Shown: positions 9,652-11,936 of the stretch, in pieces
Layout of the letters: the number at the start of each line of letters is the position of its first letter
Numbering within the stretch: position 1 is the first letter of the stretch
From: Planctomycetaceae bacterium
GTDB lineage: Bacteria; Planctomycetota; Phycisphaerae; SM23-33
NCBI GenBank assembly: GCA_039680605.1
Contig: JBDKTA010000054.1
Span: 1-64,000, forward strand
DNA: 64,000 nt
Direction of reading: 5' to 3'
Translations under genes and position numbers: made by a program
The notes under the pieces: generated by a model
What the model was told of the DNA's origin: nothing
Database searches by the model: none
What the model saw: the letters and a program-made list of their open reading frames with translations, nothing else

Positions 9652-10281
9652 TCACGTCCTGAGCGGTTGCAGCACCAGGCTCGAGTCGATGGGCACGGCG
9701 CCGGCGGCGACGATGTCTTCCAGCGCCTGCTGGATGTCGCCGCTGTGCAGTTCGATGCCGCGGCAGGCGTCCTGGATCAGGTACGTCGCGAAGTCCATCC
9801 GGCAGGCGTCGACGGCCGTGTGCCGCACGGCGTACTCCGTCGCCAGGCCGCAGATGTAAACCTCGCGCACGAGATTGTCGACAAGGTAGTCGGCCAGGCC
9901 CGTGGGGTTGCGAAGGTGAACGTCGAAGAAGCTGCTGTGGGCCTCCGTGCGCGCGTCCATGCCTTTGTAGAGCACGTAGTCGACGCGGGCGATGTCCAGG
10001 GCGTCGGCCAGTTCGGCCCCGCTGGTGTGCTGCACACAATGTTCCGGAAGGAGGATCTGCCCCACGCCGGCGGCTTCGATCACCTCGCCGGGGCTCTTGC
10101 CGGGGTGGCTCGACGCGAAGCTGACATGCCCGCTCGGGTGCCAGGCCTTGGTGGCGATGACCAGGTCGAAGTGGTCCATCAGGCGGTTGATAACCGGGAT
10201 GATCCTCTCGGCGTTGGGCACGGGCATCGCCCCGCCGCTGAGATAGTCGTTCTGCAACTCTTCGATGATAAGGGCACTCAT
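9652..10281 (-). CDS. Nicotinamidase/isochorismatase-family protein with altered active site
   Basis: 209 residues with full-length similarity to PncA-type nicotinamidases: ELQNDYLSGGAMPVP at the start, WHPSGHVSFASSHPG, PEHCVQHTSGAEL, YKGMD, and GLATEYAVRHTAVDA. By motif alignment to E. coli PncA the metal ligands His48 and His81 and the catalytic Lys106 are kept. The catalytic Asp is Glu8, the metal-ligand Asp of DWHP is Ala46, and the nucleophilic Cys is Ala151. I re-read these codons on the minus strand and they are clear. The protein therefore probably cannot perform the normal amidase reaction and may be a pseudoenzyme or use other chemistry. Nearest host genes give no pathway clue. Confidence 0.8.
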   Translation of the reverse strand: MSALIIEELQNDYLSGGAMPVPNAERIIPVINRLMDHFDLVIATKAWHPSGHVSFASSHPGKSPGEVIEAAGVGQILLPEHCVQHTSGAELADALDIARVDYVLYKGMDARTEAHSSFFDVHLRNPTGLADYLVDNLVREVYICGLATEYAVRHTAVDACRMDFATYLIQDACRGIELHSGDIQQALEDIVAAGAVPIDSSLVLQPLRT

Positions 10282-10343
10282 GGCTCGTCTCCCTCAATTC
10301 ATCATACGCTCGCCTATGGAGGATGGGCTGTCTCCTCAGTTAC

Positions 10344-10500
10344 GGGGGAATAGTCGCGGCGGAGGCACTAAATGAAGAAGTAATTCGTTGTGAATTACTT
10401 CTTCATTTGGGGCCGCATACCCCTGTCCATCGCAAGTATTCATCAAAGCCACACAAGGGCTTTGATAAATACTTGGTGCCTCCGCCGCGACTTTTCCCCC
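10344..10500. repeat. Nested three-hairpin element
   Basis: Outer arms 10344-10368 and 10476-10500 are 25 nt with one mismatch (core agtcgcggcggaggcac). Inside sit two further hairpins: 10370-10386 with 10392-10408, a perfect 17-bp stem (arm aaatgaagaagtaattc) with a 5-nt loop; and 10434-10450 with 10458-10474, 16 of 17 paired. The whole 157 bp could fold into a three-way cloverleaf as DNA or RNA. It lies just upstream of the hexosaminidase gene. Confidence 0.8.
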
Positions 10501-10556: not shown

Positions 10557-11936
10557 ATGATCCCATACCCACTCAAGAGCGTGACACAATCCGCAAGCCT
10601 TGCACTAAGCCGCAGCAGCCGCATCGTGCCCTGCACGCCCGCCCTGGCGCCGCTGGCGAAGGTTCTCTCCGGCGAGATCGCCCAGCTCACCGGCCTGCAG
10701 TTGGCGGCGGAACATGCAGCCCCGCGCGACGGCGACATCGCCCTGGCTCTCGATGCGACGATGGCGCCCGAGGCCTATGAATTGACCGTGGGCGCCTCGG
10801 CCGGCGTCCGGGCCGGGTCATACGCCGCCGCGGCGATGGGAACCGTCACGCTGCTGCAGGCGCTGCGCGGAACGTCGCTGCCGCACATGCAGGTGCAGGA
10901 CGCGCCGCTGGCGCCGTACCGCGGGCTGCTGATCGACACCGCCCGGCGATGGCACACGCTCGAGACGCTCAAGAAGCTCGTCGTGCTCTGCCGCTGGTAC
11001 AAGATCAACCACATGCAACTGCACCTGACCGACGACCAGTCGTTCACCTTCCCCAGCCGCGCCTATCCCAGCCTGGCCACGCCGGATCGCCACTACACGC
11101 TCGATCAGATCGCCGAACTCGTGACGTTCGCCGGCGACCGCGGCGTGGCCATCCTGCCCGAGCTCGAGATGCCCGGTCACGCGGCCGCCGCGGTAGGAGC
11201 CCTGCCCCAGCGCGTTGCCTGCGACCCGCCGACGGGCAACGTCCTGTGCCCCTCGCACGAGCAGACGTACGAGACGATGGACACGCTCATCGGCGAGATG
11301 TGCGAGGCTTTCCCGGCCAGCCCGTACTTCCACATCGGCGCCGACGAGGTCAACAAGACCCCGTGGGAAACCTGCACCCGCTGCAAGGCGTTCATGGCCC
11401 AGCGCGGCATGGAGAGCACCGAGGAGCTGTACCGCCACTTCATCGTGCGGATGAACGAAATCGTCAAGCGACATGGCAGGCGGATGATCGCCTGGGAAGG
11501 CTTCGCCAAGACGGGCAAGATCGCCATCCCCACCGATATCACCGTGATGATCTTCGAGAGCTACTACAATCTTCCGCCGGACGTGCTTGCCGGCGGGTAC
11601 CCCGTCATCAACGCGAGTTGGCAGCCGCTGTACGTCGTCAACGACCGCAACTGGACCCCCGAGCACATCTACGGCTGGAACATGTACCGCTGGGAGCACT
11701 GGTACAAGATCTCGCCGGCGTTTGAAAAGCCCATCCAGGTGCCGCCGACGGACCAGATCGTCGGCGCCCAGATGTGCGCCTGGGAACAGCCCGACGAGCT
11801 CGAGCTGCCCAGCCTGCGCCATCGCGTGCCCGCGATGGCCGAGCGCCTCTGGAACCCCCAGGCCGCACGCACCTTCGCCGACTTCGAGTCGCGCCTCAAA
11901 GACATCGACGCCAAGCTCGACAAGCTGCTGGCCTAG
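10557..11936 (+). CDS. Beta-N-acetylhexosaminidase, GH20 family
   Basis: 459 residues from the ATG at 10557; the frame is open further upstream but that part is repeat sequence. Residues 10-115 form the GH20 N-terminal alpha/beta domain and 119-450 the catalytic barrel. Landmarks are YRGLLIDTARRWHTLETLKK, HLTDDQSF, PELEMPGHA, and the catalytic pair Asp263-Glu264 in HIGADEV, where Asp assists and Glu is the acid in substrate-assisted catalysis. W-x-G aromatic residues of the sugar pocket follow. No signal peptide is visible, so it may act in the cytoplasm on imported chitobiose-like or glycoprotein-derived oligosaccharides. GGCGAG provides a weak ribosome site. Confidence 0.9.
   Translation: MIPYPLKSVTQSASLALSRSSRIVPCTPALAPLAKVLSGEIAQLTGLQLAAEHAAPRDGDIALALDATMAPEAYELTVGASAGVRAGSYAAAAMGTVTLLQALRGTSLPHMQVQDAPLAPYRGLLIDTARRWHTLETLKKLVVLCRWYKINHMQLHLTDDQSFTFPSRAYPSLATPDRHYTLDQIAELVTFAGDRGVAILPELEMPGHAAAAVGALPQRVACDPPTGNVLCPSHEQTYETMDTLIGEMCEAFPASPYFHIGADEVNKTPWETCTRCKAFMAQRGMESTEELYRHFIVRMNEIVKRHGRRMIAWEGFAKTGKIAIPTDITVMIFESYYNLPPDVLAGGYPVINASWQPLYVVNDRNWTPEHIYGWNMYRWEHWYKISPAFEKPIQVPPTDQIVGAQMCAWEQPDELELPSLRHRVPAMAERLWNPQAARTFADFESRLKDIDAKLDKLLA

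Follow-up and report, generated by a model that had tools for sequence, protein, structure and literature searches.

What is the strongly palindromic stretch that separates two divergent genes, an isochorismatase-like gene and a GH20 gene, in the 64,000-nucleotide window analysed from a Planctomycetaceae bacterium? Fold computation revealed that positions 10344-10500 form a 25-bp outer stem with one mismatch, a T-T pair, which encloses two separate hairpins (Table 1), just as an earlier note on these letters had described. The DNA fold has an energy of -64.3 kcal/mol, against -18.2 +/- 2.7 in shuffled sequences (z -16.8), and the RNA fold reaches -101.7 (z -16.6 against shuffles). Shuffled sequences come nowhere near this stability, and the fold of the window copy is far beyond chance (z about -16.7). 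The GH20 reading frame is open upstream through the element to 10323, and its Pfam matches begin only at residue 79.

Table 1. Positions in the window of the palindromic element, its parts and the neighbouring genes
Feature	Position	Strand	Details
Isochorismatase/nicotinamidase-like gene, left neighbour	9652..10281	-	PF00857, E 4.8e-18
Decayed left terminal end of mobile unit	~10328..10343	+	CTGTCTCCTCAGTTAC; family form GTATCCCCTCAGTTAC; 3 mismatches at C54:10328-10345
Outer stem, 5' arm	10344..10368	+	GGGGGAATAGTCGCGGCGGAGGCAC
Hairpin A	10370..10408	+	arms 10370-10386 / 10392-10408, 17 perfect pairs, 5-nt loop
Variable linker between hairpins A and B	10409..10432	+	non-majority bases 22.6% per cell in a comparison of copies (stems about 2.6%)
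Hairpin B	10433..10475	+	arms 10433-10450 / 10458-10475, 17/18 pairs, 7-nt loop
Outer stem, 3' arm	10476..10500	+	GTGCCTCCGCCGCGACTTTTCCCCC
GH20 gene, right neighbour	10558..11936	+	PF00728, E 2.4e-64; putative start ATG at 10558

Sequence search across the organism's own 5.23-Mb genome revealed about 40 places of the element. Roughly 33 copies are complete or almost complete, with identities reaching down to about 81%, and the remainder includes several half, decayed or internally deleted pieces. The copies are dispersed and essentially all intergenic; the element is thus short, non-coding, multicopy and dispersed, as expected of a miniature inverted-repeat element (MITE). Alignment of the flanks revealed shared sequence beyond the 157 bp, with GTATCCCCTCAGTTAC on one side and GTAATGCCTCAGTCAY read inward from the other, and the boundaries given earlier were therefore too short. 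In the better copies the mobile unit reaches about 190 bp, with outer ends, reading outward, of 5'-GTAATGCCTCAG / GTATCCCCTCAG. Its terminal inverted repeats comprise these imperfect outermost ends in addition to the perfect or near-perfect 25-bp arms. In the window copy the left end survives alone, as a remnant, and the right end beyond 10500 is unrecognisable.

Exact 8-bp target duplications flank four of the 22 testable copies (L009, L017, L025 and L030; GCGTCTGC, GTCAGGGG, CGTTTGGC and GCCACGGG), and L019 has a duplication at 7/8, compared to none at 7 or more in a mispaired-flank control. Words of at least 9 bases shared between the two flanks of a copy occur five times, against 0.35 expected from mispaired controls; a duplication length of 9 bp gave way to 8 bp once the ends were anchored. 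The duplications are seen in the best-preserved copies, and most copies carry none, including the window copy, whose flanks hold no target duplication.

Several observations accompany these copies. The core is reversed relative to the terminal ends in L023 and L030, and likewise in L026 by its one readable (right) end, suggesting an inversion between the arms; the perfect duplication around L030 shows that elements with a reversed core have moved as well. Just downstream of a full copy, an arm-plus-hairpin-A fragment (L260) reading AAAATGACCAAGAAACAAAAAGCG resembles the beginning of a reading frame that would be derived from the element. At C61 and C14, remnants of a single arm do not represent intact ends of an autonomous transposon, and four further end matches with three mismatches were judged chance by their surrounding sequence. 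A scan of genome contigs with the 16-base arm gave matches that showed no connection to this family and were read as chance in high-GC genomes.

The same architecture is shared by two other genera of the family, represented by genomes G023 and G005, with wholly different outer-arm sequences. In G023, at least nine copies carry the arm GAAGAAAAGAGCAAGTCAGGCACAC, which differs from the window arm, together with the same two hairpins. G005 also has at least nine copies, with yet another arm, and those that were read contain hairpin A alone. Among eight G023 copies with flanks, three have duplications at 8/8 (TCCTAAAT, TAATATTC and GAAACTTT) and two at 7/8, all lying outside the ends GTAAGAGTTCAGCC / GTAACTATTCACCC. 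Covariance-model search, scoring at most nine candidates per genome, found convincing members only in these three of the 298 genomes of the class; copy counts from this search are minima, and weak members in other genomes may be missed. Weak matches in G008, G022, G122, G162 and G182 were, where read, unrelated long hairpins or other simple repeats. Those at L274-L278 (G122, G162, G022, G182 and G008) are long near-perfect hairpins of CACAAAGG / CGCAAAG / CACGGAGG-type units and represent another kind of palindromic repeat. In addition, short GC-rich palindromes ending in GTGCTACG, which resemble GTAG-tagged REPs, lie near a family member in the window genome (L181 around 1135; G000 C50) and in G023 (L203:1400-1440). 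The earlier note had named a unique and unconserved element as the outcome that would refute its reading; the element is neither.

We propose, with a probability of about three in four, that the element is a non-autonomous MITE of about 190 bp mobilised in trans by an IS66-family (ISBst12-type) transposase. A single-ORF transposase of this type would recognise the outermost ends GTAATGCCTCAG... and GTATCCCCTCAG... and insert the element with an 8-bp stagger, leaving the 8-bp target duplications. Between these ends lies the core, in which a long inverted repeat surrounds the two hairpins.

The type of transposase is suggested by the end sequences together with the duplication length. Genuine IS66 elements in relatives (PF03050 plus zf-IS66; NF033517) have ends GTAACTCTTCAGCCGTCTGCAA; both ends are identical in L300, and L298, L299 and many of L321-L332 are similar. 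Two relatives' IS66 elements are flanked by perfect 8-bp duplications, GTTTTACT and CCTGGATC. The G023 element ends match these IS66 ends at 17/20, a score reached by none of 10,744 GTA-starting background 20-mers, and the window-genome ends match moderately, at 14-15/20, as do 0.15-0.6% of the background. In ISDge4, an IS66 element of the ISBst12 group (PMC12898284), the ends read GTAACTGCTCAGCA / GTGACTACTCAGCA and the direct repeat is 8 bp long; IS66 of Frankia gives repeats of 8 bp as well, and its ends begin GTAAGCG (PMC11946415). These published ends and repeats agree with the end matches, and the assignment to IS66 is thus firm for the G023 family and probable for the window family. At the level of the ends, the earlier view that no familiar family name fits was mistaken. 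IS66 transposases are present in 13 of the 35 genomes of the family; in the window genome and in G023, both draft assemblies, neither a PF03050 match nor a match to the relatives' IS66 transposase was found, so that no transposase partner is seen beside the elements. A transposase in the same genome is not strictly defining, because movement in trans needs no persisting partner.

Comparison of the copies bore out the suggestion that differences preserve the stems. Over the three genera together, pairing holds in 92.6% of cells, and two-sided changes occur in 35 of 60 pairs, compared to 7-17 in slid controls, with few G-U intermediates among them. Within the window genome, nine of the 60 pairs show two-sided changes, and single changes left unpaired outnumber compensated ones. 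Per cell, about 2.5-3.0% of bases in the stems depart from the majority, a figure that leaves out the five outermost outer-stem pairs (14%); the linker reaches 22.6%. This pattern fits lineages that keep the palindrome while single inserted copies decay, and both ongoing selection and arm-to-arm correction are compatible with it; the replication by copying and the selection for structure proposed earlier fit as well.

None of 32 core copies interrupts a gene called by a simple codon-usage gene caller in the window genome, and three overlap the last bases of a gene. As this genome is about 83% coding, random placement would not give such a result, which implies either targeting or purifying selection. 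Fifteen of the 32 copies lie between divergent genes, a tendency towards positions upstream of genes that does not differ significantly from the intergenic length shares (p 0.09).

The ends of IS1 begin GGTAATG..., and the window-genome end GTAATGCCTC resembles these as well. With no IS66 transposase in the window assembly, the MITE might instead owe its movement to a different DDE transposase, such as an IS1-like one, that leaves duplications of 8 bp. We consider this unlikely, given that no IS1 transposase (PF03400) was found in the window genome and that the 17/20 match of the G023 ends is to IS66 elements from the same bacterial class.

An element of the REP/BIME kind, moved by a Y1 (RAYT) transposase, would also be palindromic, intergenic and multicopy, and the window genome has 15 Y1 transposase ORFs, 14 of them over the curated cut-off. 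However, no piece of the element lies within 1.5 kb either side of any of these ORFs (less at contig ends) and the closest copy is at a distance of 2.7 kb, and the unit of about 190 bp shows no GTAG-tagged single palindrome. HUH (Y1) transposition is not known to produce 8-bp duplications such as those found here, which makes this explanation highly improbable. Of the families guessed earlier, the MITE is supported by its dispersed copies, duplications and transposon-like ends, and the REP-like element with a cognate TnpA(REP) is not supported. The strong fold, the two-sided changes across genera and the low variability of stems relative to the linker would also suit a conserved structured RNA, either cis-regulatory or small, in place of a transposon. 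Yet the copies are dispersed at unrelated loci with target duplications and occur in both core orientations, no Rfam family reaches its gathering score for the element, gene orientation follows the intergenic expectation, and G-U intermediates are few between genera; a structured RNA alone therefore has very little chance of being the explanation.

For the MITE mobilised by an IS66-type transposase, the conservation of the three-stem core by double changes indicates that the fold probably matters. It may serve transposition itself, or make insertions tolerable through a folded transcript or a bidirectional terminator. In their outer arms, aligned copies of all three genera keep an AAAA/TTTT block next to a G+C-rich stem, which would suit a two-way terminator; a simple terminator scan flagged none. 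A more tentative possibility is that the core is a functional module under selection, such as a bidirectional terminator, an insulator or a DNA fold aiding transposition, which a transposon shell carries across genera and whose arms stay complementary through arm-to-arm correction.

The element resembles the ISBst12 group of IS66 (e.g. ISDge4, PMC12898284) in its ends GTAA...TCAG, imperfectly identical, and in the 8-bp duplication, but has no transposase, and its three-stem palindromic core is by eye unlike the sequence adjoining the ends of the IS66 elements examined. QMITE2 of Coxiella, with 7-9 bp repeats, 23-29 bp TIRs, a 113-145 bp core and a strongly folding transcript (PMC10969869), is similar in size, TIR length, repeats, stable fold and intergenic placement. 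It differs in its ends, and in the present element three genera share one architecture in which the entire outer arm has been replaced in a compensatory way. The GTAG-tagged REPs and REPINs (PMC3733652, PMC3116915) are likewise palindromic, multicopy and intergenic, and they too are known in the PVC superphylum, whereas the present element is much longer, with three stems, 8-bp duplications and no associated Y1 gene. What is mainly unusual is that three nested stems are kept by matched two-arm changes across three bacterial genera.

The assignment would link this unnamed repeat to IS66 transposases, a family in which a limited literature search found no MITE described. Moreover, three genera with replaced arms and a retained fold form a natural series in which to ask whether selection maintains the inner structure of a MITE or whether that structure is only a by-product of palindrome copying.
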